From: an uncultured Methylococcaceae bacterium
GTDB taxonomy: Bacteria; Pseudomonadota; Gammaproteobacteria; Methylococcales; Methylococcaceae
Assembly (NCBI GenBank): GCA_903859815.1
Contig: CAIOOA010000067.1
Location: 1 to 64,000, forward strand
Direction of reading: 5' to 3'
Length of the DNA: 64,000 nucleotides
Notes under the pieces: model-generated
Databases searched by the model: none
The model's input: only the letters and a program-made list of their open reading frames with translations
What the model was told of the DNA's origin: nothing
Program-made: the position numbers and the translations under genes
Shown: piece by piece, positions 1,243 to 18,991 of the stretch
How the letters are laid out: each line of letters begins with the position of its first letter
Position numbering within the stretch: position 1 is the stretch's first letter

Positions 1243-4200
1243 ATGATGTTAGCTTCCGTCATCCCATGGAAAGTTCCCGTGCCAGTAGAATCCCGCCGCC
1301 CCCGTTCCGCCACGGCCTTGTTTGTCACCGCGCTGCTGCTGTTTGTGGTCGGCAGTCTGGTGGCATGGCAGCAACCGCCGCGCTTATTCCCGTTAAAGCC
1401 ACAAACCACTTCCGAATGGTGGCTGCAACCGCTGGAAGTCAATGCTTTTCAGCGAATGCCGCGTATGGGTGGAAGTCTTAGTGATGTATTCGTCGTGCCG
1501 ACGACCGGGGAGGTTTGGGCGGTGGGCGGTGTTATTTTGAGTCGGACTATTTCTTCAAGTATTCTTCGAAATGCGCTTAAAAACTTGAATACAGGTTTCA
1601 TTGTCCATAGCCGGGATGGCGGTAGGACTTGGGAACAGGTATTAATTTCGACCAAAACAGGCATACAGGCACTCAACACGATTTTTTTCACGGCTGACGG
1701 TTCACATGGCTGGGCGGCGGGAGACAAGGGCACGATCCTCACCACTGATAATGGCGGAAAGACTTGGCAACTCGAAACCAGCGGCACGACTGAAAACTTA
1801 AGTGGCATAGCCTTCGCCGCTGACGGCTTGCGCGGCTGGGCTGTGGGAGTCAATGGCACGATCCTCAACACCAGCGACGGCGGCAAAAGCTGGAACCCAC
1901 AAACCAGCATTAGCCAAGCAAGCCTTTACGGCATCACCTTCACCGCCGACGGAATGCGCGGCTGGGCGGTGGGAGATTATGGTACGATCCTCGCCAGCGT
2001 TGACGGCGGCAAAAACTGGAGCCCACAAACCAGCACTAGCCAAGGAGATATATACGCCATCGAATTCGCCGCCGACGGAATGCGCGGCTGGGCGGTGGGA
2101 AGGAACGGCACGATCCTCACCACCAGTAACGGCGGCAAAAGCTGGAACTCGCAAAATAGCCCTAGCAAGGAATCACTGTACAGTCTCGCCTTCACCGCCA
2201 ATGGCGATCAAGGCTGGGCTGTGGGAGATGATGGTACGATCCTCGCCACCGTCGACGGGGGCAAAACCTGGAACCTGCAAACCATCCCTAACACGCAAAC
2301 CATCCCTAACACGCAAACCCTTTATGGTGTCACCTTCGCTACAGACGGCTTGCACGGCTGGGCGGCGGGAGATTTTGGTACGATCCTCGCCACCGCTGAC
2401 GGCGGCACAACTTGGAGCCAGCAAACCAAGCATCAATCCCTTCACGGCATCGCCTTCGCCGCCGACGGCTTGCACGGCTTGGCGGTGGGAGAAGCAGGCA
2501 CGATCCTCGCCACTGCCGACGGCGGCACAACTTGGAACCCGCAAACCAGCCCTAGCCAAGAAAACCTTCGTGGCATCGCTCTTGACGCCGACGGCTCGCA
2601 CGGCTGGGCGGTGGGAACTAACGGCACGATTCTCGCCACCACCGACGGCGGCACAACTTGGAACCCGCAAACCCGCGATAGCATGGAATACCTTTACGGC
2701 GTGACCTTCGCCGCCGACGGCTTGCGCGGCTGGTCGGTGGGAACTCATGGCACGATCCTCGCCAGCGTTGACGGCGGCAAAACCTGGAACCCGCAAACCA
2801 GCCCTAGTACTAGTAAAGGAAACCTTTCCGGTGTCAATTTCGCCGCTGATGGCTTGCGTGGCTGGGTCGTGGGAGATAATGGCACGATCCTCGCCACTGC
2901 TGACGGCGGCAAAACTTGGAACCCGCAAACCAGCCCTAGCCAAGAAACCCTTTACGGCATCGCACTCGCCGCCGACGGCTTGCACGGCTGGGCTGTGGGA
3001 TGGAACGGCACGATCCTCGTCAGCTCCGACGGCGGCAAAACTTGGAACCCGCAAACTAACGCTAGCAAAGAATTCCTTTTTGGCGTGGCCCTCGCCACCG
3101 ACGGCTTGCGTGGCTGGGTTGTAGGATATAATGGCACAATCCTCGCCACTGTTGACGGCGGCAACACCTGGAACCTGCAAACTAGCCCTAGCAAAGAAGA
3201 CCTTCACGGCATCGCCTTCGCCGCCGATGCTCTACATGGCATCGTTGTCGGCAATGGCTTAACCCTCCTCACCACATCAAACGGCGGCAAAACCTGGTCA
3301 CCAGTCGAATATCACCGCTACCCCGCCCCTTGGTATTTCTTGCTTTGCCTAGTGTCATTAATTCTCGCCGGCTTAGGAACCCGCCGCCCACAAGCCCAAA
3401 CCCTAAGCGCCGGTGTGGCGGATTTGCTGGCTTCAGACCGGCCTTTGCAAGCCGGGGATGCCGATCCTTTGGGTTATGGCGATATCGCCGCCGGTTTATC
3501 GCGCTTCTTGCGCAATCCGCAAACCCTGCCGCCGTTGACGGTGGCAATCACGGGCGAATGGGGCAGCGGCAAGAGCTCCTTGATGAATTTGCTTAAGGCG
3601 GATTTGAAGAAAGCCGGTTTCCGCACGGTGTGGTTCAACGCTTGGCATCATCAAAAAGGCGAGCAATTGCTAGCCTCGCTGTTCGCCAATCTGCGCGCCC
3701 AAGCCATTCCGCCTTGGTTAAGCCATGCCGGTTGGTCATTCCGCTGGAAGTTGCTCTATCGACGCAGCCTTCGCCATGCCGTGTTACTGGTGGCATTATT
3801 GGTGCTGGTCAGCGCCAGTCTAGGTTATTTGGCGAATGATTTTCCGCATTTTCGCCAAGTGATCGCTTCCGGCCATTGGGACAAACTGAATGTGCAGAGA
3901 TTAGCCGCGTTATCGCCGATGCTGGGCGGGCTGGTCGTAGGGCTGGTGGCGCTGTTTAATGCGGTCAAAGGTTTTGGCCTAGACCCGACCAAGCTGATGG
4001 CATCGGTCTCAGTGGACGGCGGCAGCAAACTCAAGCCCTTAGAGCCGGGGGCGCGTTACCAGTTTGCCGAGGAATTCGCCGATGTCACCGAGGCACTGGA
4101 ACCGGGTCGGCTAGTCATTTTCATTGACGATTTGGATCGGTGCAGCAAGGAAAATGTATTGGAAGTGTTGGAGTCGGTCAATTTTCTGGTGTCCTCCGGC

Positions 4201-5616
4201 GGCTGCTTCGTCGTGATGGGCATAGCGCGGGAATGGGTGGAAACCTGCGTCGGCCTGAGTTTCAAGGAACTGGCCGAGGAGCATAACCATGGCTGCGATG
4301 ACAAAGCTTACCGCATCGAATTCGCCCGCAAGTATTTGCAAAAGCTCATCAATATCGAAGTGCCAGTGCCGAAATTGGACGCGGGCGACTCGCTGCGGCT
4401 GATGCCTGATGAACACGTCTTGCCGGAAGCGGGCAATCGGCTGCGGACGATGATATCGGCGGCTTTACTTTGGCTGGGCGAGGCGCGGCAGATGTTGTTG
4501 CTATTGCTATTGCTGGCGGTCGGCTTGGTGCTTGGTTTTGGGTTATCACAGCGTATCGGCAGCGGCTTGGAATGGGTCGGCGGCAAGCTGAATGGCACGG
4601 AGGCTACACTTAAGCCGGTGGAAATTCCTTGGCCTGCAAATTTAGATGTGAAACTAGCCGGGACGGATAGCGGGATGGGTGTTGGTTTGGCGAATCAATC
4701 AAAAAGTACCGATGGGCAATTGCTGCTACGGGCCGATCCAGAAGCAGATTGGGACAAAGGCGTGGTGCTTGGCAAACTGGGAGGGGCGGAATTAGTGTTG
4801 AAACGGCCTGCGGTGCTTGAGCCTGAGTTTGTCGGGCCAGTCAAGCAGACTGTTACTGAAACGACAACATCAGGTGAACCAAAGCAAGAAGTGGCTGAAC
4901 ACACTGGGCCATCATTCACACCGGGCGCAACAGATGACGGGCGTTCACTTTGGCATATCGGCCCACCCACTTTTATGAGCTTGGTGTTGCTGGGATTTGG
5001 CTTGGTGCTGCTATTGCGCAGCCCGGTCAAGCTGACGGAAGATTCCGACAAATTCATGGAGGCGCTAAAAACTTGGCATCCTTTAATCGCCGCCAGTTGC
5101 CCAACCCCGCGCATGGTCAAACGCTATTTGAATTGGGTAAGGTTTCTGGCAATGCGTTACCGGCCTATTGAGCCGGAAGCGCCGGGGATTATGAAACGTT
5201 TGGGTTTGCTGGCTAAACCCGAACCGACAGCAACAGAAACCGAAAAGGTTTTCGACGAGGATATTCTTGTCGCGCTGAGTGCTATTTACCAATATCGGAA
5301 GGAGTGGGTTTTGGATGTGGTGAAATTTGAGCAGATCAAGGATGCTGGTCCTGCTATCGAATTTACAATGGAAGGGATTGACGCGATAAATGAACAAGAC
5401 AAAATGGCGAAAAAGATTAGTGAAACAGAAGATGTCCAAGAAAATATGGCACAATCACTCGCCGCAGAGCGCCTAAGGCCAAAAACCATCGAGCGAAATA
5501 ATCGCCATAAACTACTGACCGAAGTTTTTGCCAGCCTCACCCTGGAAGACTGGCAAAAAGCCGCCGCACAACGCGAACGTTTTATTGCGGCGGTGGGCGA
5601 TGTGGATGTGGCTTGA
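1243..5616 (+). CDS. Membrane KAP-family P-loop ATPase with two N-terminal Ycf48-like beta-propellers
   Basis: This is a 1457-residue protein. Residues about 27-46 form an N-terminal membrane segment. Residues about 55-695 hold 14 repeats of about 42 residues of the type GWAVGxNGTILATxDGGKTW, the first one divergent; Ycf48/BNR-like repeats form seven-bladed propellers, so 14 suggests two. A second membrane segment follows at about 703-720. The KAP NTPase has Walker A GEWGSGKSS at 771-779, the WFNAWHH motif after it, two hydrophobic segments before Walker B, and Walker B FIDDLD around Asp962-Asp963. Two more hydrophobic segments and a helical tail follow. Predicted topology puts the propellers outside the inner membrane and the ATPase in the cytoplasm. 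KAP ATPases include the phage-exclusion protein PifA, but the role of this protein is unknown. The first of two adjacent ATGs was used. Confidence 0.85.
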   Translation: MMLASVIPWKVPVPVESRRPRSATALFVTALLLFVVGSLVAWQQPPRLFPLKPQTTSEWWLQPLEVNAFQRMPRMGGSLSDVFVVPTTGEVWAVGGVILSRTISSSILRNALKNLNTGFIVHSRDGGRTWEQVLISTKTGIQALNTIFFTADGSHGWAAGDKGTILTTDNGGKTWQLETSGTTENLSGIAFAADGLRGWAVGVNGTILNTSDGGKSWNPQTSISQASLYGITFTADGMRGWAVGDYGTILASVDGGKNWSPQTSTSQGDIYAIEFAADGMRGWAVGRNGTILTTSNGGKSWNSQNSPSKESLYSLAFTANGDQGWAVGDDGTILATVDGGKTWNLQTIPNTQTIPNTQTLYGVTFATDGLHGWAAGDFGTILATADGGTTWSQQTKHQSLHGIAFAADGLHGLAVGEAGTILATADGGTTWNPQTSPSQENLRGIALDADGSHGWAVGTNGTILATTDGGTTWNPQTRDSMEYLYGVTFAADGLRGWSVGTHGTILASVDGGKTWNPQTSPSTSKGNLSGVNFAADGLRGWVVGDNGTILATADGGKTWNPQTSPSQETLYGIALAADGLHGWAVGWNGTILVSSDGGKTWNPQTNASKEFLFGVALATDGLRGWVVGYNGTILATVDGGNTWNLQTSPSKEDLHGIAFAADALHGIVVGNGLTLLTTSNGGKTWSPVEYHRYPAPWYFLLCLVSLILAGLGTRRPQAQTLSAGVADLLASDRPLQAGDADPLGYGDIAAGLSRFLRNPQTLPPLTVAITGEWGSGKSSLMNLLKADLKKAGFRTVWFNAWHHQKGEQLLASLFANLRAQAIPPWLSHAGWSFRWKLLYRRSLRHAVLLVALLVLVSASLGYLANDFPHFRQVIASGHWDKLNVQRLAALSPMLGGLVVGLVALFNAVKGFGLDPTKLMASVSVDGGSKLKPLEPGARYQFAEEFADVTEALEPGRLVIFIDDLDRCSKENVLEVLESVNFLVSSGGCFVVMGIAREWVETCVGLSFKELAEEHNHGCDDKAYRIEFARKYLQKLINIEVPVPKLDAGDSLRLMPDEHVLPEAGNRLRTMISAALLWLGEARQMLLLLLLLAVGLVLGFGLSQRIGSGLEWVGGKLNGTEATLKPVEIPWPANLDVKLAGTDSGMGVGLANQSKSTDGQLLLRADPEADWDKGVVLGKLGGAELVLKRPAVLEPEFVGPVKQTVTETTTSGEPKQEVAEHTGPSFTPGATDDGRSLWHIGPPTFMSLVLLGFGLVLLLRSPVKLTEDSDKFMEALKTWHPLIAASCPTPRMVKRYLNWVRFLAMRYRPIEPEAPGIMKRLGLLAKPEPTATETEKVFDEDILVALSAIYQYRKEWVLDVVKFEQIKDAGPAIEFTMEGIDAINEQDKMAKKISETEDVQENMAQSLAAERLRPKTIERNNRHKLLTEVFASLTLEDWQKAAAQRERFIAAVGDVDVA
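1709..3300 (+). repeat. Intragenic tandem repeats, about 126 bp, encoding propeller blades
   Basis: The blades of the KAP fusion are repeated at DNA level about every 126 bp. Strings such as GACGGCGGC, GGCACGATCCTCGCCA and TGGAACCCGCAAACCAGC recur nearly unchanged in most units. Two units are longer: the one near 2281 duplicates a short IPNTQT-coding stretch, and the one near 2805 carries extra STSK residues. High DNA identity suggests recent duplication or gene conversion. Confidence 0.9.
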
Positions 5617-7244: not shown

Positions 7245-8474
7245 ATGTCTTCTGACTTTGCCATCCGCGTCAACAATCTAAGCAAATGCTACCAAATTTA
7301 TGAGGAGCCGCATCACCGGCTATTGCAAAGCATCTTTCGTGGGCGCAAGCAATTCTTCCGGGAATTTTGGGCTTTGCACAATGTGTCGTTTGACGTAAAA
7401 AAAGGGGAGACGGTCGGCATTATCGGCAAGAATGGATCGGGCAAGTCAACCCTGCTGCAACTTATTTGCGGCATAGTTTCGCCGTCCGAAGGTCAGGTGG
7501 AGACTAATGGACGGATTGCCGCGTTGCTTGAATTGGGCGCTGGCTTCAATCCCGAGTTCACCGGACGCGAAAATGTCTATATGAACGCGACCATCCTCGG
7601 CCTGAGCAAATCTGAGATTGACTTGCGGTTAGCCGATATCATCGCCTTTGCCGACATCGGTGAGTTTGTCGATCAACCGGTCAAAATCTATTCCAGCGGC
7701 ATGTTCGTGCGTTTGGCGTTTGCGGTTGCGGTGAATGTCGAACCAGAGATATTGGTTGTGGACGAAGCTTTGAGTGTCGGGGATGTGGCATTTCAAAACA
7801 AGTGCATCATGAAAATCAAGGATCTGCGTGACAAAGGGACGACTTTGTTGTTCGTCGCACACGACTTGAGCGTCTTACAGATGATTTGCGATCGGGTTGC
7901 ATGGATTAACCAAGGGCAAATCGTTATGATCGGTGATTCGATTGAAGTATGCCAAGAGTATTACGTCAGGACCATGGAGAGGCAGATGCCGGAAGCGATC
8001 CACACTGTCAGCATCCCACAAAAAGACACGGGTATGGCTAAATTCGTCAAGGTTGATCTTGATAGCCTAGGGCACTCTGGGGAGAATAATCCAGTGATTA
8101 ACGTCGGTAGCGCGATCCGGTTCAATTTTGCAGTTAAAGCAGAAAAGCCAATGGGTCGCACTGTATTCGCGGTGAGTATTTTCCGAGCCGATGGCGACTG
8201 GATGGTAGGGCAATCGAGTCTGGAGGCCGGCGTGTTTTGGCCGCCTACCAATCCGGGAGAAACCCAACGCGGTAGGGTTGTGTTTGAACCCAATTGCCTT
8301 GCACCCGGTGAGTACCTAGCCTCTTTCGCCGCCTATTCGGAAGACCTGTCGGTGTGCTATGCGCATACCGAACTCAACGTAGGTTTTTCGGTGCGCTGGA
8401 AATTTCCAACGTGGGGGCGCTTCGTCCATCCTTGCCGGTGGGTATCCCCTCTTGGGGAGGCGAGTCCGATATGA
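7245..8474 (+). CDS. Wzt-type ABC ATPase for surface polysaccharide export
   Basis: A 409-residue ATP-binding subunit of an ABC-2 polysaccharide exporter. Walker A is GKNGSGKST (61-69), the signature begins YSSGM (149-153), Walker B is ILVVDE (169-174) and the switch His is His206. Residues about 250-405 form the extra C-terminal domain that in Wzt of O8/O9a-type systems binds the modified end of the finished glycan before export. The partner permease (Wzm) is not in the window. The stop overlaps the start of the next methyltransferase gene as ATGA, suggesting coupled translation. The gene probably begins the operon, because a MITE-like element lies just upstream. Confidence 0.9.
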   Translation: MSSDFAIRVNNLSKCYQIYEEPHHRLLQSIFRGRKQFFREFWALHNVSFDVKKGETVGIIGKNGSGKSTLLQLICGIVSPSEGQVETNGRIAALLELGAGFNPEFTGRENVYMNATILGLSKSEIDLRLADIIAFADIGEFVDQPVKIYSSGMFVRLAFAVAVNVEPEILVVDEALSVGDVAFQNKCIMKIKDLRDKGTTLLFVAHDLSVLQMICDRVAWINQGQIVMIGDSIEVCQEYYVRTMERQMPEAIHTVSIPQKDTGMAKFVKVDLDSLGHSGENNPVINVGSAIRFNFAVKAEKPMGRTVFAVSIFRADGDWMVGQSSLEAGVFWPPTNPGETQRGRVVFEPNCLAPGEYLASFAAYSEDLSVCYAHTELNVGFSVRWKFPTWGRFVHPCRWVSPLGEASPI

Positions 8475-9193
8475 CTTCAGACATTCAATCGGATCTGCTG
8501 GGGGTTTCACGCATGAAATCCATGGAAGTGGACATTTCAAACCATCATTACATCGTCCTTAGCCTTCTCCATCAATGGCTTGAAGATGTAGCCCTCCCAC
8601 ATGCCAGAGGGGTCATGCTGGATTTTGGCTGCGGCGGACAGCCCTACAAGGCGTTGTTCAGCCAGCGTATCTCCCAATACATCGGAGCCGACGTGGCTGC
8701 ATCGAAGGATGTTCAGCTTGACATCGAAATTCAGCCGGGGAAACCAGTTCCACTCGCAGATGCCAGCGTGGACACCATTTTATCAACGCAGACACTTGAG
8801 CATGTCTTCAATGTCGAGTTTTATCTGAGTGAATGCCAGCGCTTGCTCAAACCAGGCGGCACTCTAATACTCACGGTGCCAATGCAGTGGCGGGTGCATG
8901 AAGTGCCTTACGACTATTGGCGCTTTACCCGTTATGGCCTTGTCGAACTTATGAGACGCCATGGCTTCAATACGTCTAGCATAACTCCCTGCGGTGGTGC
9001 GTGGGCTTTGGCCGGCCAAGTCATCAATAGCCATCTTTCCTTTTATTGGCGAGGTAACGGAATGCTTTATTCTTTAATCAACCGTCTGGCGTTATGGCTG
9101 GATCGCCGCTATCCCGACCCGGACGAAACGCTGAACCTAATGTGCCTAGGTCAGAAGCAGGAGGCTAACACAACGCCAGAGGAACTCGTCTAA
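8471..9193 (+). CDS. SAM-dependent methyltransferase, class I
   Basis: A 240-residue protein. Motif I is MLDFGCGGQPYK, and the later segment RLLKPGGTLILTVPMQW followed by YDYWRFTRYGL is typical of methyltransferases in glycan clusters. An open frame continues 39 codons upstream, but it overlaps the Wzt gene. The ATG at 8471 shares ATGA with the Wzt stop and is the best start. The neighbours suggest it methylates a sugar or glycan end, which is inference. Confidence 0.85.
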   Translation: MTSDIQSDLLGVSRMKSMEVDISNHHYIVLSLLHQWLEDVALPHARGVMLDFGCGGQPYKALFSQRISQYIGADVAASKDVQLDIEIQPGKPVPLADASVDTILSTQTLEHVFNVEFYLSECQRLLKPGGTLILTVPMQWRVHEVPYDYWRFTRYGLVELMRRHGFNTSSITPCGGAWALAGQVINSHLSFYWRGNGMLYSLINRLALWLDRRYPDPDETLNLMCLGQKQEANTTPEELV

Positions 9194-9212
9194 TGATGAT
9201 GCCGAGAAGTTT

Positions 9213-11141
9213 ATGAGTTTGAAGCCATCCCCCGCAAACTATGGCGAACGTGCCACTGAAATACCCCTGCCGACTTGTGCAGTCTCCCGCTCGTCTGAAG
9301 CGAAGCCGTTGTGCCAAGTGAATGGTTTCCAAGTTTGGCGCTGCCCTTCGTCGGCTACGGACTTTGTTTGGCCCAAGCCGACCGACACTATTCCCAAAGT
9401 TGATCCTGCTGGAGATAGGATTGGCAATGCTTGCGCAAACCATGAGGCGAGCGAATCTGTGTTGAACATAGCCACAGCCCTGCTGGATCGTTTCACCGAA
9501 GGTGCGAAAAAACTGTCGGTTCTCGACGTTGCCTGCGGATATGGGACATGCCTCCGCCTAGCAGCAGACAAGCGTTGGAAATGCTTTGGCATAGAACCTT
9601 CCGCCCACGCCCGTGAAGTTGCCGCTAAACGCCATGGGAACCGCATCAACATAGTAGAGCGGGCCGAAGACTTGCTGCCGCAGCGTTTCGATCTTATCTT
9701 CATGTTCGAAGCCCTTGAGCATCTAACAGACCCTTATCCCTTGTTCTTCACACTGTTCGGCAGGGACGCGATAGGGCCGGAAACCTTGGTTGTCATCACC
9801 ACACCGAATGCGCGCAGTCACGAGGCCATCGCCAATCCTTCTGGCTGGGCTTATCGGAATCCGCCTTCGCGACTTGTTTTCTATTCGGCCAGGTCTTTGG
9901 AAATCTTGTTGCGGCGCTTGATGTTCAAATCTCTGCACCTCGCGGGCATAGAACCGCTGCCATCCGGCCCAGCGTCACACTTTGATGATGAAGCTGCCTC
10001 ACTGAACGACGAACTAGGTGGTTTTTTAGGGCTTGTCGCCGAAGCGAAAGGCAGCGATTTCAAGGAATTCATGCATGAACGTTACGTACCCGGGGCATTT
10101 TGGAAGTTGACTGAGTACGAACACCTTCCACGCTATGCCTTGGCAGGCACCCTCGCCAATGGAAAAAGGGTCTTGGACTTTGGTTGCGGCACTGGCTACG
10201 GGTCTGCGATACTTGCGGAAGTCGCCGTTTCTGTTGTTGGCTTGGATATTTCAACGGATGCGATTGAGTGGGCTAAAGCCATGCACCGCAACCCCAGACT
10301 GGCTTTTGAATTGCGCTCAGATCTTGGTCGTGGCTTGCCGCCTGCTTCGTTTGACTTAGTGACTTGTTTTGAGATGATCGAGCATGTCGATTTTGAGATG
10401 CAGCAAGCAACCATCCAGAGCATTGCCAAGTTGCTGACACCGGAGGGGAAACTTGTCATCTCCACACCTGACCCCCGGTTCACCGCGGATTATGGCAATA
10501 ATCCTTACCATTTGCGGGAAATGTCTGAAGCGGAATTCATGGAATTGTTGCAACCCTGCTTCCGGCAGGTGACGATGCTAAAGCAATGGGTGCGCCCAAG
10601 CATCCTCATCGGCACTCAAACCTTCCCTGGTTTGGAACCCGTGGTGTTCGGCCCACTGGAGAAACATAGCGGCTACGACTCATTGGTAGGGTTTGTCGCC
10701 ATTTGTTCGAACCAAGCCTTCAGCCCCCCTCCGCACTTCTGCCAATTTGACACAACAACGAACTTCAATCGTAAAACCCTCGAAACGGAACACCAATTAA
10801 ACCGGCTCCGTTTTGAGAATCAATGTCTGCTCGACGGAAAGGCGCTTCTAGAAAGCCAAGCGATGGAACTCAACCGAGTTCTGGCGGAAACCCGAACATG
10901 GGTGGATACATTGATAGAAGGGAAGAATTGGCTCGAAGGCCAAGTTAACGCGCTCGAAGCGCAATTGCAGGAACTTGACCATGTATTGGAAGAGACCCGC
11001 GCTTGGCTGAAAGAGCGGGAAGGCTTACTCGCGGAAACCCAAGCCGTCAACTTGGCTCAGTCCTCTCAGATAAAGCGTCTGTTGGAGGAAGTCGAACACT
11101 ACCAAAATACCTCGCGCGAACCATTGGACAGCGAGCCCTAA
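9213..11141 (+). CDS. Two-domain methyltransferase with C-terminal coiled coil (WbdD-like design)
   Basis: A 642-residue protein with two class I methyltransferase domains. The first has motif I VLDVACGYGTCLRLA near residue 108; the second has VLDFGCGTGYGSAILA near residue 318 and CFEMIEHVDFE after it. From about residue 525 the chain is a charged heptad-like coiled coil (MELNRVLAETRTWV, ELDHVLEETRAWLKE and similar). A methyltransferase joined to a coiled coil beside a Wzt ATPase recalls WbdD, which caps E. coli O9a chains and measures length with its coiled coil. No kinase domain like that of WbdD was seen. The role as chain terminator is inference. Confidence 0.8.
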   Translation: MSLKPSPANYGERATEIPLPTCAVSRSSEAKPLCQVNGFQVWRCPSSATDFVWPKPTDTIPKVDPAGDRIGNACANHEASESVLNIATALLDRFTEGAKKLSVLDVACGYGTCLRLAADKRWKCFGIEPSAHAREVAAKRHGNRINIVERAEDLLPQRFDLIFMFEALEHLTDPYPLFFTLFGRDAIGPETLVVITTPNARSHEAIANPSGWAYRNPPSRLVFYSARSLEILLRRLMFKSLHLAGIEPLPSGPASHFDDEAASLNDELGGFLGLVAEAKGSDFKEFMHERYVPGAFWKLTEYEHLPRYALAGTLANGKRVLDFGCGTGYGSAILAEVAVSVVGLDISTDAIEWAKAMHRNPRLAFELRSDLGRGLPPASFDLVTCFEMIEHVDFEMQQATIQSIAKLLTPEGKLVISTPDPRFTADYGNNPYHLREMSEAEFMELLQPCFRQVTMLKQWVRPSILIGTQTFPGLEPVVFGPLEKHSGYDSLVGFVAICSNQAFSPPPHFCQFDTTTNFNRKTLETEHQLNRLRFENQCLLDGKALLESQAMELNRVLAETRTWVDTLIEGKNWLEGQVNALEAQLQELDHVLEETRAWLKEREGLLAETQAVNLAQSSQIKRLLEEVEHYQNTSREPLDSEP

Positions 11142-11207
11142 TAAACTGAAATCGAACGTGATCTAATTTAAGACTGGTCATGAACACGACTTTTAGGAAT
11201 TTTCTCA

Positions 11208-12086
11208 ATGGCTTTTAACGAACAACTTTTCCAGCGGCAGTTTAATAAGGAATGGTTTACCCAGTTTCGCTCAACTTATGAAGATATCAACGTCGACCGC
11301 CCATTAGAATCAACCAGTATTGGTTTTGATGAGACCGAACCGGGTTTTCGTGATTTCCTGCTTCAGGATAATCTGGACAAGCAGACGTTTGTGGACGAGT
11401 ATCTGCCCTATTTGGGGACATTTCTTCACGGCCCATTTCCGCTTCCGGGTCGGAGGGTCACCCGCAGCGCTTGGGACTGCCGGGGGAAGCTGGGTGCCTA
11501 TCAAGCCACGGGTGTGTTGCCCAAAGTGCGTGGCGCACGAGCACTCGACATTGGCTGCAATGCAGGCTATGACAGTTTTTTATTGAGTTCGCAAGGCGCA
11601 TTTGAAGTGGTTGGCATAGACCCTCACGGCTTTTATCATCAAGCCTTGTTTCTTAATGCAGTTTACGATGCCCCTGGTGTCCGTTTTATGAATCTGGGAT
11701 GGGAAGACTTGGATCCAAGATTCTTTGGTGGATTTGATTTTATCAATTGCCAAGGGCTAATCTATCATGTACGCGAACCGATGTTATTACTTGAAAAACT
11801 CGCCAGCATCATGACTCCCGGTGCGACACTGCTGATGGAAACCCACTTATTGTCTGAGCAGTCGACTCAGTCGCAGTTTGTCGAGGGTGCCTTCTGGGGC
11901 GATGAAACTTATTGGTGGATATTTGGTGATGAATGCCTCATGGGAATGCTCAGGTCCGCTGGTTTCAAGGATGTCAGGATGCCATTAAAGGCTGATTGCG
12001 ATAGCCGTAACCCTAACGACCCGCATATCACCGTAGAAGGCTATCCAGCCGGGGCTAGAGGCTGGTTTGTGGCGACCAAGGGGTAG
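11208..12086 (+). CDS. CmoB/DUF1698-like SAM methyltransferase
   Basis: A 292-residue class I methyltransferase. Motif I is ALDIGCNAGYDSFLLS, followed by VVGIDPHGFYHQALFLNAV and the FDFINCQGLIYHVREPMLLL segment seen in relatives of CmoB (DUF1698). It is shorter than CmoB, and its place in the polysaccharide operon suggests a glycan or lipid substrate rather than tRNA. It is the third methyltransferase gene in a row. Confidence 0.8.
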   Translation: MAFNEQLFQRQFNKEWFTQFRSTYEDINVDRPLESTSIGFDETEPGFRDFLLQDNLDKQTFVDEYLPYLGTFLHGPFPLPGRRVTRSAWDCRGKLGAYQATGVLPKVRGARALDIGCNAGYDSFLLSSQGAFEVVGIDPHGFYHQALFLNAVYDAPGVRFMNLGWEDLDPRFFGGFDFINCQGLIYHVREPMLLLEKLASIMTPGATLLMETHLLSEQSTQSQFVEGAFWGDETYWWIFGDECLMGMLRSAGFKDVRMPLKADCDSRNPNDPHITVEGYPAGARGWFVATKG

Positions 12087-12131
12087 CCAAAAGGGTTACG
12101 GATTATCCCAGGCTGCGTCGATATGCCAAGG

Positions 12132-12164
12132 CTACGATTGCGACAGAATGTCCGGCAATCGTAG
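12132..12164. other. Inverted repeat before the GT2-GT4 gene
   Basis: Perfect 10-base arms CTACGATTGC and GCAATCGTAG surround a 13-base loop, between the methyltransferase stop and the start at 12207. There is no U-tract, so it is not a classical terminator. It could be an RNA processing or attenuation structure. Confidence 0.4.
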
Positions 12165-12206
12165 TTGGCAACCCTCGCCTGAATTTTACTTTTCATCCAA
12201 CAAGCC

Positions 12207-14519
12207 ATGATTGATCCTAAACAGCCAAATTATGCTTCCCCGCCGTCTTGCCATAGCCGGGCTTTGTATGAGTATATGCCGAAAAATCCAGAGCTGGGTC
12301 CGCTGGTATCGATCATAACCCCCTATTTCAACACCGATGGAGTATTCTTTCAAACAGCGGGGTCAATTGCGAGACAGTCGCTGCAAAACTATGAATGGGT
12401 CATCGTCGACGATGGCAGCACCGATGCCGCGTCACTGGCACAGCTTGATCGCGTTGCCTCCCAAGACCCACGAATTCGTGTAGTCCGACAAGTCAATGCC
12501 GGACCGGCAGCGGCGCGTAACACCGCCTTTCGGCACAGTGTAGGCCGCTATATCTGCCTGCTGGACAGCGACGACCTGATCGAGCCAACATTCCTTGAAA
12601 AATGCGTTTGGTTCCTTGAATCAAATTCGAATTTCGGGTTTTGCAATAGTTGGTCGGTAAACTTTGGCGACCAAGAGTTTCTTTGGGAATTGGGGTTTGA
12701 GCGTGGCAGCCAATATCTGGAGGCCAACAGCGCTCCGCCGATGTCAGTCATCAAGCGCCAAGCCTTTGCCGATGCGGAAGGGTTTGATGAGAATATCCGC
12801 TTTGGGCACGAGGATTGGGATTTCTGGCTTAGATTGGCCAGTCTAGGGCATTGGGGTCACACTTTGCCGGAATACTTGGCATGGTATCGCAAACGTGCCC
12901 ACGGTCGTTTCAGCCAAGTGATGTCAACGGGTACGACCAATAGCGACTTCGAGCAATGGATTGCAAAGAAATACCAAAGCCTTGCTGACAATTTCCCTGC
13001 CCCTACCATCCGCCATGTGGAGCCTTTTGAAAGCGTCGACTTGACGGTGAGAGTGGACAATCCGCTAAAGCGTGGAACCGGCAAGCGCATCCTTATGGTG
13101 TATCCTTGGTTGGTGACTGGCGGGGCCGACAAAGTCAATCTCGATTGGATTACGACGCTAACACACTATGGTTGGCAGGTCACGGTTTGTGCGACGCTTG
13201 AGTCTCACAACGATTGGTTGCCACGCTTCGCCGCGCTAACCCCTGACGTGTTCGTGCTGCCGAACTTCTTACGGCTTGTCGATTTTCCGCCGTTCCTAAG
13301 CTACCTGATCGAATCACGCGGCATCGACTTGGTCATGATTTCGGGCAGCACCTTCGGTTACCTAGTCTTGCCTAGCCTTCGTTCCAATCACCCTGGGGTT
13401 GCCTTTGTTGATCTTTGCCATGTGGAAGAGCCCCATTGGCAAAATGGCGGGCATCCTCGTTTTGCTGTAGGTTACCAAAATTTGCTGGAACTCAACTTGG
13501 TGACGACACGCCATCTGCAAGAGTGGATGGTTGGGCATAGCGCCGATCCTAATCGGATTGAGGTTTGCTACACCGGAATCGATGTCTCCAAGTTAACTCC
13601 GCAGGCAGAAAGGCGTTCCGCCGTCCGAGAGTCATTCGGACTGGATGCCACGTCGCCGGTGATCATCTTCGCGGGGCGACTCTGTGAGCAGAAACGGCCC
13701 CTGTTTCTGGCTGAAATCCTCAGTTCGCTTCGTGACCATGGCATTCGCTTTCAGGCGCTTATCATTGGTGACGGCGAACTCAAACCGCAACTCGAATCCA
13801 CAATCATCGAATTGGGCCTAGCCGACAACGCCCGTCTGCTTGGGAACGTCGGACACGACACTTGGCTTGAAGCCTTGGCCGTTGCCGATGCCTTCTTGCT
13901 GCCATCTTTATATGAAGGCATATCGGTCGCCCTGCTGGAAGCGATGGGCATGGGGGTTGTTCCTGTCACCGCCGCAGTTGGAGGTCAGGAAGAAGTGATA
14001 CTGCCCGATTGCGGTTTTCTGATTTCGCACGGGAAGGATGAGTTGAATGCCTATGTCGATGCTCTCGCTCGGCTGATAGCCGACGAAACCCTACGCTCAA
14101 GCTTAGGCACTGCGGCGCGGTCAAGGATAGTCGGCCATTTTAACCGCGAGTTTACCGATGCCCATTTGGTTGAAACGCTGAACCGGGCCGTCGCGATGGT
14201 CGGAAGTAAACCGCCTGTTCGTCTCCCGGCTAGCTTGGAAATAGAGTTGGCTACCCAGGCGGTCGAGTATACGCGCCTAAGCAATGCGGCAAGTTTCCTT
14301 TGGGAACACTGGCAACGGAGCAGGGAAATGCAACAGAGTACGGAACCCCCTCCAACATCAAACGAGCCGACTTTGCCGCCAACTCCACCCGCTATTCCTG
14401 TCAGGTTGCAATGGTTGCTCGAACGCTTCTTTCGTTCGCGTCTTGGGCAATGGTTGCGCTTTAATTCCGTAGCAAGGCGCATTAGGGAATGGCTTGGAGA
14501 GTGTAAAGGGATAAAGTAA
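12207..14519 (+). CDS. Bifunctional glycosyltransferase, GT2 fused to GT4
   Basis: A 770-residue protein. Residues about 33-260 are a GT2 (GT-A fold) domain with DDGSTD at 68-73 and the metal/nucleotide motif DSDD at 120-123. From about 305 to 690 a GT4 (GT-B fold) domain follows, with LMVYPWLVTGGADKVNL, VIIFAGRLCEQKRP and the donor-site segment LYEGISVALLEAMGMG. The C-terminus is Pro-rich and then basic (RVRRIREWL-like), perhaps for membrane contact. A protein with two transferase domains can add two successive sugars to the growing chain on the cytoplasmic face. Donor sugars are unknown. Confidence 0.88.
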   Translation: MIDPKQPNYASPPSCHSRALYEYMPKNPELGPLVSIITPYFNTDGVFFQTAGSIARQSLQNYEWVIVDDGSTDAASLAQLDRVASQDPRIRVVRQVNAGPAAARNTAFRHSVGRYICLLDSDDLIEPTFLEKCVWFLESNSNFGFCNSWSVNFGDQEFLWELGFERGSQYLEANSAPPMSVIKRQAFADAEGFDENIRFGHEDWDFWLRLASLGHWGHTLPEYLAWYRKRAHGRFSQVMSTGTTNSDFEQWIAKKYQSLADNFPAPTIRHVEPFESVDLTVRVDNPLKRGTGKRILMVYPWLVTGGADKVNLDWITTLTHYGWQVTVCATLESHNDWLPRFAALTPDVFVLPNFLRLVDFPPFLSYLIESRGIDLVMISGSTFGYLVLPSLRSNHPGVAFVDLCHVEEPHWQNGGHPRFAVGYQNLLELNLVTTRHLQEWMVGHSADPNRIEVCYTGIDVSKLTPQAERRSAVRESFGLDATSPVIIFAGRLCEQKRPLFLAEILSSLRDHGIRFQALIIGDGELKPQLESTIIELGLADNARLLGNVGHDTWLEALAVADAFLLPSLYEGISVALLEAMGMGVVPVTAAVGGQEEVILPDCGFLISHGKDELNAYVDALARLIADETLRSSLGTAARSRIVGHFNREFTDAHLVETLNRAVAMVGSKPPVRLPASLEIELATQAVEYTRLSNAASFLWEHWQRSREMQQSTEPPPTSNEPTLPPTPPAIPVRLQWLLERFFRSRLGQWLRFNSVARRIREWLGECKGIK

Positions 14520-14544
14520 AGAACTATCAATACCGTAAATTTTT

Positions 14545-15879
14545 GTGAAAAATATGAATATTAGCTTTATTATTAGCTTTATAAAGGGTTGGAGTCGTGG
14601 GTTTTTAATTTGCGTATCTTTATTTGTTTTGCTTGGCTTTGCAAGTATTATCTCGCATAATGAACAAGCAAAAATCCGTGCGCATATTGTAGTTGGTTTG
14701 CAAGAAATTGAGAGCTTGAATACAACCAAGGATAATTGGACAGATTGCCTAGTGATATCGGGAACCATAGTCCCTGACCTAAACTTATTAGAGTATTTTG
14801 GAAGTCCAAAACTCATCATTGACAAGCCTTGCTCATTTATTGATGCGGCTCTGCTCGATACAAGTAAAGTTCTTTGGAATAGTTATGATCGTTATTGGCA
14901 TGGGTCGGTTTATCTAGCGACAGTCGCGCTCAGACTTTTTGACTTGTCGGTTGTTCAATACATTTATAAATTCGCCATGGTGCTGTCACTGATTTGCCTA
15001 TGCTTAGCTGGATTTAAATTAAAGCATGACCTTAGAGTGCCGCTCATCTTGGTTTGCCTCGGAGTCTTTACCGGGGTTGGAATCAATTCGTATGGTGGGC
15101 ATTTAGGTCATTCTCCGACTTATTTCTTACCGCTTTTTGCTTTTGCCGTTTTCATTGTTTTAGGCTTTGATAAATTAACCATTTTTGAGGCGGCTACATT
15201 TGGTGCAGTGATAGGGACAATAGCCGGTTACTTTGATTTGCTTTCGGGTGGAATACCATTTTCTCTTGCTATGTCAATATTTGTTTGGTATTTGTTATGG
15301 TTAAATATCCCATTACAAGACCAAAAATTCAAAGGGCTGTTCATTGGCATTGCTATATTATGTCTAGCCTATGTTTTTTCAGTGTTTATGCTTGTGACCA
15401 TCAAGCTATTTTCTGCGGCAGTATTGCTTGGTCACCCTGACGCGATTCCCGGATTTAAAGGGGAGCTACTGTGGCGCATGTCAGGTGAAGAAATTAATGC
15501 AGAAGGTCGCTTGGATGCCGCAGCTATGGCCGCCAAGGAATTATGGGTTCACAGGGATTATGCATTTATTGGTGGAGCCAAGGGGGGTAGCATCGTCTTT
15601 TGGGTTGGCGGCTTTGCATGGATACTGGCACTTTGCGTTTCCTGGTATAACTATATAATCTCACGTAACACTAAAGAAATCCTATATTTTTTGATGCCAT
15701 TCCTAGCAGCCATGGTTGTCCCTCTTTGGTTCCTGGTTTTTAGCAACCACGGTTTTATCCATGCCTGGTTCATGACCCGAGTAATCTGCCTTATCCCTGT
15801 ATTCGGTATTGTCTCCGTCTACATGTGCCTTGTTCGCTGTAAGTTAAACCGAAGTAGCCTTGATGCCTTGGTCAATTGA
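14545..15879 (+). CDS. Polytopic membrane protein of the polysaccharide cluster
   Basis: This 444-residue protein has about ten hydrophobic segments, the first at about 15-35, followed by a soluble loop of about 80 residues. It could be an O-antigen polymerase, ligase or GT-C type enzyme, but no diagnostic motif was recognised. The sequence is more AT-rich than its neighbours. The GTG at 14545 was used; an ATG at 14554 is an alternative. Confidence 0.6.
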   Translation: MKNMNISFIISFIKGWSRGFLICVSLFVLLGFASIISHNEQAKIRAHIVVGLQEIESLNTTKDNWTDCLVISGTIVPDLNLLEYFGSPKLIIDKPCSFIDAALLDTSKVLWNSYDRYWHGSVYLATVALRLFDLSVVQYIYKFAMVLSLICLCLAGFKLKHDLRVPLILVCLGVFTGVGINSYGGHLGHSPTYFLPLFAFAVFIVLGFDKLTIFEAATFGAVIGTIAGYFDLLSGGIPFSLAMSIFVWYLLWLNIPLQDQKFKGLFIGIAILCLAYVFSVFMLVTIKLFSAAVLLGHPDAIPGFKGELLWRMSGEEINAEGRLDAAAMAAKELWVHRDYAFIGGAKGGSIVFWVGGFAWILALCVSWYNYIISRNTKEILYFLMPFLAAMVVPLWFLVFSNHGFIHAWFMTRVICLIPVFGIVSVYMCLVRCKLNRSSLDALVN

Positions 15880-16041
15880 GAATTGCTGGGAGAGGACTTA
15901 AACTGGCATGACATGAGTCTGATTGTGGCAAAATATACACATCAATCCCGGCATTGAACCGCAAGTTAACCGCTTGATTTGTTCGGTTTGCTTGCCGTGG
16001 CAATTCTTTTGGTAGTTGACAGCTTCACAGGGTTCTAATAT

Positions 16042-17001
16042 TTGGAAAAAACAATTAAAACAAACTTGCGTTACCTAGTGTTGGGAGGCAAAGGTTTCAT
16101 TGGCTCTCATTTGGTGGACGAATTGATGGCCATGGGTGCATTTGTGCGTTGCTTCGAACGCCCGCATGTGGTGTCATTGGGGAAGGATCATGAGGGGGAT
16201 TCGAATTACGAATTATTTGAAGGTGATTTTGTCAGCGAAGCGGATATCGAGGCAGCGCTAGATGGCTGCGATACTTGCTTTCACCTCATTTCAACGACAC
16301 AGCCAAAATCCTCCAACCAAGATCCGGTGTTCGATGTGGAAAGTAATCTGTTGGGAACCATCAGGCTGCTGGACCATGCTGTGAAAAGTGGCTTGAAAAA
16401 AATTATCTTCGTATCATCGGGGGGGACGGTCTATGGCAAACCGCTGCAAACCCCTATCCCTGAAACACATCCGACCAACCCGCTTTGCTCCTATGGCATT
16501 AACAAGCTATCCATCGAAAAGTATTTAGGTTTGTACCACGAATTATACGGATTGGACTACACCGTGCTGCGAATGTCAAACCCGTTTGGAGAACGCCAGA
16601 GGACAGATGCAAGCCAAGGCGCCGTGGCAGTTTTCTTAGGCAAGGCGATTCGTGGGGAAACCATAGAAATATGGGGTGACGGTTCGGTCGTCCGTGATTA
16701 TGTGTATATCCACGATGTTATTTTGGCATTGCTTGCCGCGCTCGATTGCTCGTGCGAGGAACATGTATTTAACATTGGCTCAGGAAAAGGCGTGAGTTTG
16801 AACGAATTACTTGACAGCATCGAAAACATCACCCTTTACCCCACCCGGCGTCGCTATGTAAAATCCAGGCTATTCGACGTACCCGACAATGTGTTGGACA
16901 TTGATAGGGCGGTTTCCCTACTGGATTGGTCACCCCAGATTTCCTTTGAGGATGGTTTGATGCGTTTTGCGAAATGGCTTGAAAACCAACAGAAGATATA
17001 A
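16042..17001 (+). CDS. NAD-dependent sugar epimerase/dehydratase (SDR)
   Basis: A 319-residue extended SDR enzyme acting on nucleotide sugars. The NAD loop is GGKGFIGSH near the N-terminus. The catalytic Ser-Tyr-Lys set is seen in VSSGGTVYG and YGINK. NPFGERQ and RDYVYIHDV are the usual substrate-site segments of UDP-hexose 4-epimerase relatives. It begins at TTG, with AGGG upstream; no better ATG lies in frame before the NAD-binding strand. It probably supplies an activated sugar for the glycan built by this cluster. Confidence 0.85.
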   Translation: MEKTIKTNLRYLVLGGKGFIGSHLVDELMAMGAFVRCFERPHVVSLGKDHEGDSNYELFEGDFVSEADIEAALDGCDTCFHLISTTQPKSSNQDPVFDVESNLLGTIRLLDHAVKSGLKKIIFVSSGGTVYGKPLQTPIPETHPTNPLCSYGINKLSIEKYLGLYHELYGLDYTVLRMSNPFGERQRTDASQGAVAVFLGKAIRGETIEIWGDGSVVRDYVYIHDVILALLAALDCSCEEHVFNIGSGKGVSLNELLDSIENITLYPTRRRYVKSRLFDVPDNVLDIDRAVSLLDWSPQISFEDGLMRFAKWLENQQKI

Positions 17002-17029
17002 TGGAGTCCAGTGACTGGGTAGTTTCCCA

Positions 17030-18991
17030 ATGTCGAAAGCAGATGAGGGTAGTCAAGGATTCAACCCAAATCGTTTGAATCGATTTATTTTATTTAACCG
17101 TTGTCATCGAAAAAAAATGCAAAAAAAAAAACGATTAACAACCGATGATTTTCCTGAATTGATGGCAAAGCATAGTAGGAAAGGTTTTGCCGAGCCAGAG
17201 GCTTATTTGTATTGGCTTGCCATGATGGAAGCCCACGGTGATCGAATTGAGAGGCTAAAACTTCAACTGGATGAGCGCGATAAAGAAATAGCCAAATTAA
17301 ATCAGACCCTCCAGGAAATATTTGATAGCACTAGTTGGAAGGTAAGTGCCCCATTGCGGTGGTTACGCAAATCAGCCCACGCAGATAATATCATTGCCAC
17401 TTGCCGGAATGCCTATGCTGATTTAAAGTCTAAGGTGCAGCATAAATTAGAGAATCCCCCCGAACCGAAAGTTTTTCAAGGACTGGACCACTTTGGGAGT
17501 AAGGTGGATATCGACCCTAGTCGTGAAACTGTTTTGATTGTAACCCATGAAGCATCAAGAACGGGTGCGCCGATATTAAGCCTTAACCTAGCCAAAGGGT
17601 TCCACAAAAAATACAATGTGGTTTCTTTATTACTAGGTCTTGGCGCATTAGTTGATGATTTCAAGAGAAACTCTGATATTGTCATAGGACCTATTGAAAA
17701 TCGATATGACGAGTTATCGGTTTCCAATATTGTTGATAAGTTGCTGGATTATCTTGACATCAGATTTGCTATCGTCAATTCCATTGAATCTAGAAACGTG
17801 CTTCCTGCTTTGGGAAGGCGCTTTGTCCCTACGGTGGCTCTAATTCATGAATTTGCCGCCTATACTCGACCAAGGGAAGCTTTCATTCAAGCCACTTTTT
17901 GGGCAACCAAAGTAGTGTTTCCTGACGAAATCATTCGGGAAAATGCCATATCCCACCATCCCGAGCTAGTCGGTAATCATTCCTTAATCCTCCCACAAGG
18001 GCGTTGCTTACTCTCTGAAGTCACTGCAAATAGGGTATCGACATCAGCGGAAAGGGAAGCCATATCGAAAGTTTTTCGTCCAGTGAACAAGCAACCAGAA
18101 ACCATCGTGATACTGGGCGCAGGGTCGGTTCACTTCCGCAAGGGAGTCGATATTTTTCTCGATTGCGCGGTACACATCGCACGGTCAAATTTCCGTGACA
18201 CCTGTCGTTTCGTGTGGGTTGGAGGGGGGTTCGACCCGGAACATGATGCTGACTATTCGGCTTATTTGGCCGATCAAATCCAGCGATCAGGATTGGAAAA
18301 TCAGGTTGCTTTTTTAGATGAAGTGTCGGAAATGGATTACGCCTATGAGCAAGCCGATATCTTATTGCTGAGTTCCCGTTTGGACCCCTTGCCCAATGTG
18401 GCGATTGATTCAATGTTTCACGGCATTCCAGTCCTCTGCATGGATCAAACCACTGGCATCGCTGGACTATTGAAAAAAAATGGATTGTCTGAGGAATGTG
18501 TAGCGCCTTACCTAGACGTTGAAGCATTGTCCATGAAGTTATCACGACTCATAGAGTCGCCAAATTACAGAATAATGGTCGGGGAAAAACTTAAAGCATT
18601 AGCTCCGACTCTTTTCGATATGGATACTTATATCGAAACTCTGGATAAACAGGGCATCCAAGCCATGGCGCAGACTTTACAGGAAAGGGAAGATTGCCTT
18701 CAAATTATCAAGTCGGGCTGTTTTGACCCGGACATTTCCCCACCGATTCAGCCTAATAATGCCGTTCCCCCTTTAAATTCCATACGTGAATATGTCAGGG
18801 CTTGGGCAAGCCAGGTTGGCAGAAGAAACCCGTATCAGGGTTTTAATGCTGATATTTATCTGGAACAGCGTGGAAATGAGGTGGCAGGGGAACCTTACGC
18901 TGATTACTTGCGCTCAGGCAAGCCTTCCGGCCCTTGGCTTACTGAAGACATCCTGCCCGAAACCATGGTTGAGGTTAAAGACAATGCATGA
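17030..18991 (+). CDS. Glycosyltransferase, GT4-like, with N-terminal coiled coil
   Basis: A protein of up to 653 residues. After a basic N-terminus comes a short coiled coil (RLKLQLDERDKEIAKLNQTLQEIF) and the SWKVSAPLRWLRK signature common before GT-B domains in large surface-glycan enzymes. The transferase part includes TGAPILSLNLAKGF, VILGAGSVHFRKGVDIFLD and LLSSRLDPLPNVAIDSM. The tail (FNADIYLEQ to YLRSGKPSGPWL) matches the short C-terminal module found in such proteins. The ATG at 17117 is an alternative start. A run of 11 A residues just after that ATG could promote slippage. Confidence 0.8.
   Translation: MSKADEGSQGFNPNRLNRFILFNRCHRKKMQKKKRLTTDDFPELMAKHSRKGFAEPEAYLYWLAMMEAHGDRIERLKLQLDERDKEIAKLNQTLQEIFDSTSWKVSAPLRWLRKSAHADNIIATCRNAYADLKSKVQHKLENPPEPKVFQGLDHFGSKVDIDPSRETVLIVTHEASRTGAPILSLNLAKGFHKKYNVVSLLLGLGALVDDFKRNSDIVIGPIENRYDELSVSNIVDKLLDYLDIRFAIVNSIESRNVLPALGRRFVPTVALIHEFAAYTRPREAFIQATFWATKVVFPDEIIRENAISHHPELVGNHSLILPQGRCLLSEVTANRVSTSAEREAISKVFRPVNKQPETIVILGAGSVHFRKGVDIFLDCAVHIARSNFRDTCRFVWVGGGFDPEHDADYSAYLADQIQRSGLENQVAFLDEVSEMDYAYEQADILLLSSRLDPLPNVAIDSMFHGIPVLCMDQTTGIAGLLKKNGLSEECVAPYLDVEALSMKLSRLIESPNYRIMVGEKLKALAPTLFDMDTYIETLDKQGIQAMAQTLQEREDCLQIIKSGCFDPDISPPIQPNNAVPPLNSIREYVRAWASQVGRRNPYQGFNADIYLEQRGNEVAGEPYADYLRSGKPSGPWLTEDILPETMVEVKDNA

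Follow-up and report, generated by a model that had tools for sequence, protein, structure and literature searches.

Asp-box propellers fused to a KAP ATPase: a widespread bacterial protein family and its possible role as a conflict receptor

A 64,000-nucleotide stretch of DNA from an uncultured Methylococcaceae bacterium (contig CAIOOA010000067.1, assembly GCA_903859815.1), referred to here as the window, carries at 1243-5616 on the forward strand a gene whose product joins Asp-box propeller blades of the Ycf48/BNR type to a KAP NTPase. The gene is a single ATG-start open reading frame (ORF) of 1457 amino acids (aa) without an internal stop. Fusions of this kind form a widespread and seemingly undescribed family, the KAP domain and both types of propeller found in it being already known. 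Tentatively, and with rather less than even confidence, the protein is taken to be a single-gene transmembrane receptor of the conflict type, directed at non-self or at threats to the envelope, which would signal through an RdrA-like ATPase. This reading is chosen because of the kinship of the KAP domain, a pattern of blade variation like that of HET proteins, the sporadic spread of the gene and its presence in a phage. One or two seven-bladed propellers outside the inner membrane would bind a ligand by their top face, with four variable residues per blade. Binding would be relayed via conserved entry and exit collars and the second membrane segment (TM2) to the AAA+/STAND-like KAP ATPase in the cytoplasm. 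The ATPase would probably assemble as a ring, as RdrA does, and its four further membrane segments might act on the membrane itself by entry block, depolarisation or growth arrest.

Domain architecture and predicted structure

Pfam profiles match the front of the protein to PSII_BNR (E 1.5e-75) and its rear to KAP_NTPase (PF07693, E 3e-24). The KAP_NTPase match is divided into two stretches by a membrane hairpin, and its score of 86.2 bits passes the Pfam gathering cut-off of 20. Fourteen Asp boxes recur at residues 125-680 with a period of about 42 aa; the first regular expression found 13 of them, the fourteenth being the DGGKNW box at 254, and a blade profile also counts 14 blades. Tandem Repeats Finder (TRF) reports in the blade region an array of 126 nucleotides (nt) in 11.9 copies, together with a 384-nt duplication of about three blades at 84%. 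The initial annotation of this DNA had placed 14 Ycf48/BNR-like blades between two membrane segments, followed by a KAP NTPase with a membrane hairpin of its own. Asp boxes, profile and hydropathy bear out the first statement, and the two hairpin segments (846-864 and 887-905) lie between Walker A and Walker B as expected from the second. Its membrane layout stands for the four segments that it named and has to be extended by a pair that it did not mention (1084-1102 and 1244-1262). Hydropathy thus gives six predicted membrane segments in the chain (Table 1), a count from which weaker segments within the blades and the NTPase core are left out. Over 68 aligned rows, the Walker residues G90, D276, D277, D279 and R280 are invariant and K91 is conserved in at least 90%. 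AWHHQ is present in 61 of 71 tree rows, a count partly biased by the pattern used to fetch the sequences. The only blade residues strictly invariant in 17 aligned members are G, W and one Asp-box D, so that there is no sign of a conserved catalytic site.

A frame error joining two genes near 3,340, which the initial annotation had considered, is excluded by two further genomes that hold the junction and by dozens of other loci in one frame. A genome of the same family in three contigs (G019) has, on a contig of 4.4 Mb, a 1545-aa orthologue that is 39% identical to the window protein and keeps the order of 14 blades, exit motif and KAP. In the other genome (G003), one 396-aa ORF with about 64% identity to the window protein spans the last blades, the TM2 exit segment and Walker A; elsewhere this allele is interrupted and split across contig ends. 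Besides the interrupted allele (L026, on C307), G003 holds two C-terminal copies (L027, on C314, and L028, on C297), both of which begin at a contig end near residue 1061. This suggests that a repeated KAP core was collapsed in assembly.

AlphaFold models were compared with the Protein Data Bank (PDB) by Foldseek and VIA-align. The model of residues 1-719 (mean pLDDT 88.9, pTM 0.81) is made up of regular strand units, and its top Foldseek match is 2ymu, a 14-blade repetitive propeller, followed by GH74, AIP1 and other tandem propellers. In VIA-align, the seven-bladed 7bie aligns on residues 398-688 (282 residues, root-mean-square deviation (rmsd) 2.0, Z 36.8) and 2ymu over residues 72-679 (561 residues, rmsd 7.8). 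Ring 2 (blades 8-14) is well supported because of the 7bie alignment, and the predicted ring 1 draws, less directly, on the tandem-propeller matches and the blade count. Many single-ring structures match from 69 to 680 yet align over no more than about 277 residues, a sign that an N-terminal segment may close ring 2 in the modelled fold. Two seven-bladed rings are the arrangement favoured by the model and the PDB comparison, in agreement with the two propellers proposed in the initial annotation. One continuous propeller without closure, the outcome that it had named as contrary, is disfavoured by the model, Foldseek and VIA-align, less directly so for ring 1.

The model of the KAP part (residues 687-1457) has a pLDDT of 75.4 and a pTM of 0.73, the loop between TM5 and TM6 being poor. 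The closest solved fold is RdrA of RADAR (8hr8; Z 16.9, 256 residues, rmsd 4.5; Foldseek E 1.8e-4). A sequence profile search with the KAP part against solved structures gave no significant match (8fnu, RdrA, E 0.39). Counts of lysine and arginine (K/R) place the N-terminal side of TM1 inside in 51 of 59 members, with six equal and two opposite. For TM2, K/R counts over 65 members are higher after the segment in 29, equal in 15 and lower in 21, and the direction is not fixed by these counts alone. Of 64 members, 54 have two segments between Walker A and Walker B, the window protein among them, and 60 have at least two after Walker B. The N-in TM1 and the two predicted rings support a binding platform outside and a cytoplasmic KAP ATPase in one chain, as first proposed; the propellers are probably outside and the ATPase inside.

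Family members, ring number and blade turnover

The family was searched for by the KAP part alone, from the linker onward and without the propeller, in 84,980 genomes, one per species, and 392 relatives were found. They occur in Pseudomonadota, Acidobacteriota, KSB1, Verrucomicrobiota, Planctomycetota, Spirochaetota and other phyla, which are intermixed in a quick KAP tree. A set of 82 loci consists of the best 80 of the 392 relatives and two viral contigs; it contains the duplicate rows L083/L089, L090/L091 and L121/L122 and one damaged copy, L084. N-terminal parts were scanned in the window protein and in 77 of the 82 loci, five having fewer than 120 aa. PSII_BNR was found in 62 of these 78 N-terminal parts and WD40 in eight. 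Ten blade-poor members taken singly comprise three rich in WD40, one with PASTA (a match in the N-terminal part of L065), two with weak PSII_BNR only and four without a Pfam family. Propeller type and ring number thus differ over a common KAP core, and the fusion, which the initial annotation had treated as singular, belongs to a family. Literature searches of open-licence papers found no description of a KAP-propeller fusion, and none in the available part of a retrieved paper on DGR antigen sensors. At closer range its distribution is sporadic: the fusion occurs in 3 of 61 relatives, the window's own genome counted, and in 2 of 369 genomes of the class, namely the own genome and G418, which has at least eight Asp boxes ahead of its KAP. 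An insert of 70-140 aa lies between the first two detected blades in L025, L041, L044, L045, L066, L099 and others, and is absent from the window protein.

On one contig (NZ_JAHREN010000003.1), the stretch with the propeller-KAP gene appears up to three times (L083, L084 and L089), one copy being full of indels. A sensor swap within this Siccirubricoccus contig (L083/L084, with the same KAP core and propellers 58% alike) was considered and dropped, the copy being frameshifted: the L083 and L084 DNA is 99% identical with many indels. L083 and L089 repeat 17 kb at 99.9%, and the repetition is probably an assembly fault.

Blade numbers of 7 and 14 are frequent. Among 27 fully tiled N-terminal parts, 15 have 14 blades and six have 7, the others having 13 (two), 12 (two), 6 (one) and 4 (one). 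Once three identical copies are removed, 24 parts remain, of which 18 have exactly 7 or 14 blades and the rest have 13, 13, 12, 12, 6 and 4, in a count for which the tiling rule was fixed after the numbers were seen, the blade profile was made from these same proteins and non-tiled or divergent members went uncounted. Blade quantisation as a law is rejected, 6 of the 24 deviating from it. A one-ring or two-ring label, which we set from the length of the N-terminal part (from the blade count for L088), changes 15 times on the quick KAP tree, at least nine of these changes being forced by starred branches, and is somewhat clustered (17 of 500 shuffles as low). Eight full-length free giant BNR proteins of the genus were examined, and the same profile counts 28 blades in every one. 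Two such free 28-blade Asp-box proteins are encoded in the window's own genome (G000:C251, L023:298-4704, and G000:C185, L024:5935-10467), and they also occur in some relatives within the genus; their short tail resembles what we take to be a SHOCT domain.

Within a protein, mean blade-core identity is 0.58-0.90 (ten proteins). Between proteins, identity of blades at the same position is close to that of blades at other positions: 0.63 and 0.63 for the window protein and L094, 0.53 and 0.53 for L080 and L116, and 0.49 and 0.47, and 0.39 and 0.38, for two more pairs. The closest pair, L080/L081, retains a positional signal (0.69 versus 0.59). In each of the five pairs, only 2 of 13 blades have their best match at their own position. 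In view of these matches and of the near-equal identities in four of the five pairs, the blades appear to have been largely rebuilt lineage by lineage. Near-identical blades that evolve in concert, the HIC-type trait, are thus found in four of five pairs.

Variation among blades peaks at positions 10, 12, 28 and 29 of the blade unit. Leave-one-out chose the same four positions in nine of nine proteins, and they are again high (p 0.0068 or less) in all four proteins outside the defining set, one of which is the phage copy. In the model they fall where strand A begins and in the B-C turn, which by general propeller geometry are on the same propeller face. The pooled ratio of nonsynonymous to synonymous changes (N:S) is 170:69 at the four positions versus 521:434 elsewhere (p 3.5e-6), and relaxed constraint could be the source of this excess.

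A conflict receptor and its alternatives

Several known systems share parts of this design. The PifA model of PADLOC matches two stretches of the window protein (E 1.7e-22), the better one covering profile positions 6-99 of 720, and the QatA model also matches; no family named Tmn is among the PADLOC matches. The score for the NCBIfam equivalog of QatA is 92.3 bits, below the cut-off of 600, and that for NACHT (PF05729) is 12.4 bits, below 26.7, so that the protein does not qualify as a STAND/NLR NACHT protein. The link to PifA drawn in the initial annotation holds at the level of the KAP family; F-plasmid PifA has no segment above the hydropathy threshold used here. QatA is a KAP-family NTPase according to the available part of one source (PMC13279940); Tmn, in the available part of another, is a KAP NTPase with two transmembrane domains whose mechanism is called unexplored (PMC11846954). 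The anti-phage proteins PifA, QatA and Tmn thus have the KAP NTPase in common with the window protein, which carries a propeller not reported for them in the parts of the sources at hand. QatA works in the qatABCD operon, whereas the propeller-KAP gene has no conserved neighbours and its product has six predicted membrane segments. RdrA, whose fold is nearest to that of the NTPase part (8hr8, 8fnu), has a partner, RdrB, and forms a heptameric ring according to the entry titles; the RdrA match lacks a propeller front end. The RdrA fold match, the PifA and QatA models and the published defence role of Tmn and QatA support a conflict receptor, as do the N-in TM1, the two predicted rings and the variable propeller type and ring number over one KAP core.

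The fungal HET-D/HET-E NWD receptors resemble the family in the behaviour of their repeats. As far as the available part of the source goes, their WD40 repeats undergo concerted evolution, and selection acts on four codons of the top face (7, 9, 25 and 27), which are situated in the D-A loop and in a beta-turn (PMC1805685). They share with the window's family an NTPase and a propeller of near-identical, concertedly evolving blades with four variable positions; the paired positions, 7, 9, 25 and 27 in HET-D/E and 10, 12, 28 and 29 in the propeller-KAP proteins, start 18 apart in both and fall in equivalent loops. HET-D/HET-E differ in their NACHT/WD-repeat layout, in demonstrated positive selection and in a known incompatibility function, and are not described as membrane-spanning in that part of the source (PMC1805685). 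WRAP, as far as its source is available (2ymu; PMC9218822), resembles the window protein in 14 near-identical blades that form two seven-bladed rings with an NTPase, but its WD40 blades are C-terminal on a STAND protein, whereas the Asp-box blades of the window protein are N-terminal to a KAP NTPase. It is doubtful, though conceivable, that the family is a membrane-spanning prokaryotic counterpart of the NLR/HET receptors, with a propeller outside that is rebuilt time and again from a single blade with four variable top-face residues, and an RdrA-like ring inside that acts on the membrane, used against phages or envelope intruders and in at least one phage to exclude competitors. In that case, HET-like blade diversification would have arisen independently in Asp-box propellers. 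If the receptor reading is right, recognition repeats would evolve like those of fungal non-self receptors, yet across a membrane and in another propeller lineage. A fused, re-amplified candidate sensor, predicted to be outside the membrane, makes the question of the ligand testable.

The phage copy is intact, with 1308 aa and 14 blades (L121:6000-9926, IMGVR_UViG_3300014489_000164; L122:5935-9858). The two IMG/VR contigs, which have different IMG sample numbers, are 99.76% identical over 14.7 kb and represent one phage. The copy lies between minor-tail and tape-measure genes with unassigned ORFs intervening; upstream are head maturation protease, scaffold and major head genes, and downstream is a tail-spike-like gene. 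It is possibly an exclusion moron.

A number of results weigh against a conflict receptor. A search for a defence-gene neighbourhood in the first 500 aa of 140 immediate neighbours, one on either side of the gene, found none: no PADLOC family occurs in more than one of them (25 of 82 families listed), and no Pfam family is common to more than two. In 72,556 plasmids, no place covers 80% of the KAP query; 14 plasmid records have a partial match, six of them annotated as qatA, in a comparison made by the KAP query alone without regard to propellers. There is no match in 50,697 INPHARED phage records, and five short-peptide pattern scans of 2.9 million viral contigs, which distant copies can escape, gave only the one propeller phage. 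In sixteen other viral KAP loci, for which only Asp boxes were counted, no box was found in qualifying ORFs, two loci having no such ORF. L083 is the sole protein whose per-site N:S at the four positions is above 1 (3.34, rest 0.50; p 0.038); the ratio is 0.34-0.87 in the other eight of nine proteins, which relaxed constraint also fits. Six free 28-blade control proteins, whose blades are more diverged than those of the propeller-KAP proteins, are likewise more variable at these four positions, though less markedly (p 0.002-0.072), so that some of the pattern belongs to this type of blade in general. Finally, the ratio of nonsynonymous to synonymous substitution rates (dN/dS) in eight pairs is 0.21-0.48 in the propeller, 0.05-0.20 in the KAP core and 0.17-0.47 in the C-terminus, and positive selection was not seen in any region of any of these pairs. 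The pairs are not independent, since three come from one endosymbiont trio and two from one Bradyrhizobium trio. As dN/dS does not reach 1 in any region of any pair, the strong claim of an arms race is rejected; the genes look functional, and evolution is faster in the propeller than in the ATPase core, without overall positive selection.

Purifying selection along the whole chain would equally suit an envelope-status sensor or assembly factor, with host proteins or glycans of the periplasm as ligands of the propellers and with the KAP ATPase as the motor of assembly, scaffolding or stress signalling. Its propellers would act much as Ycf48 does in the assembly of photosystem II, and the whole would be a bacterial analogue of the scaffold Kidins220. 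Among solved propellers, Ycf48 is nearest in sequence (5ojp, 8am5; E about 2e-22), and Ycf48/HCF136 belong to the same Asp-box propeller family (PSII_BNR) as free propellers; the window protein scores 240.9 bits against the Ycf48 equivalog PRK13684, below the cut-off of 326, and has 14 blades versus a single seven-bladed ring. The neighbours, mostly ordinary chromosomal genes without a common theme, fit this role too, the window gene adjoining an alcohol dehydrogenase and a polysaccharide-export and glycosyltransferase region. A fixed host partner, however, sits badly with the sporadic distribution and cross-phylum mixing described above, with WD40 replacing BNR propellers in some members and with blade re-amplification, and an envelope role is judged unlikely. 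Even with a role in host envelope sensing, the fusion would represent a receptor architecture that is widespread and apparently undescribed.

An inner-membrane exclusion device that directly blocks DNA entry in superinfection or conjugation, without regulated signalling, is improbable. PifA kinship at the family level and the place of the phage copy among morphogenesis genes, close to the tape-measure gene, speak for such a device. In HK97, gp15 is a superinfection-exclusion moron in the tail region whose action depends on the tape measure. Only one phage was found to carry the propeller-KAP gene, however, and none was found on plasmids. An adhesion, kin-recognition or glycan-binding protein, with ATP hydrolysis controlling propeller display or clustering, is quite improbable: tandem Asp-box propellers do resemble GH74 in fold, the GH74 xyloglucanase sharing the two-ring propeller fold of the window model, and the NCBIfam F510_1955 glycosylhydrolase scores 102 bits (under its cut-off of 175), but by prediction the inner membrane anchors both ends of the propeller region, which is therefore unlikely to reach other cells in Gram-negatives, and G, W and one Asp-box D are the only strictly invariant blade residues in the 17 aligned members.

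Feature coordinates and neighbouring genes

The features of the propeller-KAP gene are collected in Table 1.

Table 1. Positions in the window of the propeller-KAP gene and its predicted parts.
Feature	Position	Strand	Basis
Propeller-KAP gene, 1457 aa	1243..5616	+	ORF, Pfam
TM1, predicted signal anchor, N-in, residues 23-41	1309..1365	+	hydropathy, K/R counts across members
N-terminal collar QPP...WWLQPLEVNAFQRMPR, residues 44-73	1372..1461	+	E65 and R71 invariant in 17 aligned long members
Asp-box blades 1-7, predicted ring 1, residues 78-391	1474..2415	+	blade profile, Asp boxes, model
Asp-box blades 8-14, predicted ring 2, residues 392-688	2416..3306	+	profile, model, 7bie alignment
Exit motif EYHRYPAPWY, residues 689-698	3307..3336	+	consensus xYxRxPAPW over 68 aligned rows
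TM2, residues 695-713	3325..3381	+	hydropathy, model
Walker A GEWGSGKSS, residues 771-779	3553..3579	+	alignment
WFNAWHHQ motif, residues 797-804	3631..3654	+	alignment
KAP membrane hairpin TM3/TM4, residues 846-864 and 887-905	3778..3957	+	hydropathy, model
Walker B FIDDLDR, residues 960-966	4120..4140	+	alignment
TM5, residues 1084-1102	4492..4548	+	hydropathy
Second predicted extracytoplasmic loop, about 140 aa	4549..4971	+	low-confidence part of model
TM6, residues 1244-1262	4972..5028	+	hydropathy
C-terminal helical domain, predicted cytoplasmic, residues 1263-1457	5029..5613	+	model

The window gene is flanked by an ORF resembling fn3 (just below the fn3 cut-off) and by the zinc alcohol dehydrogenase gene, and qatBCD are not beside it. 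The adjoining polysaccharide synthesis and export region (7245-18991) contains an ABC transporter with a Wzt C-terminal domain, methyltransferases and glycosyltransferases. No conserved neighbour gene was found across the family, the clusters being generic families or close relatives: a GGDEF-type protein at 10 loci, mixed kinase and transporter ORFs at 10 and mixed ORFs at six. PADLOC matches among the 140 neighbours are single and scattered, for example a DRT helicase model, GajB/UvrD, DndA/SspA and PD-T4-6. In PHROGs (loci L041-L121), phrog_5982 occurs in four of the neighbours, phrog_20458 in three and five more families in two each. Just upstream of the window gene, at positions 837-1044, a 25-nt repeat whose core (CTTGGAGTGCAAGGCTTGCCTTGCT) is palindromic occurs six times, and an inverted copy comes after these.

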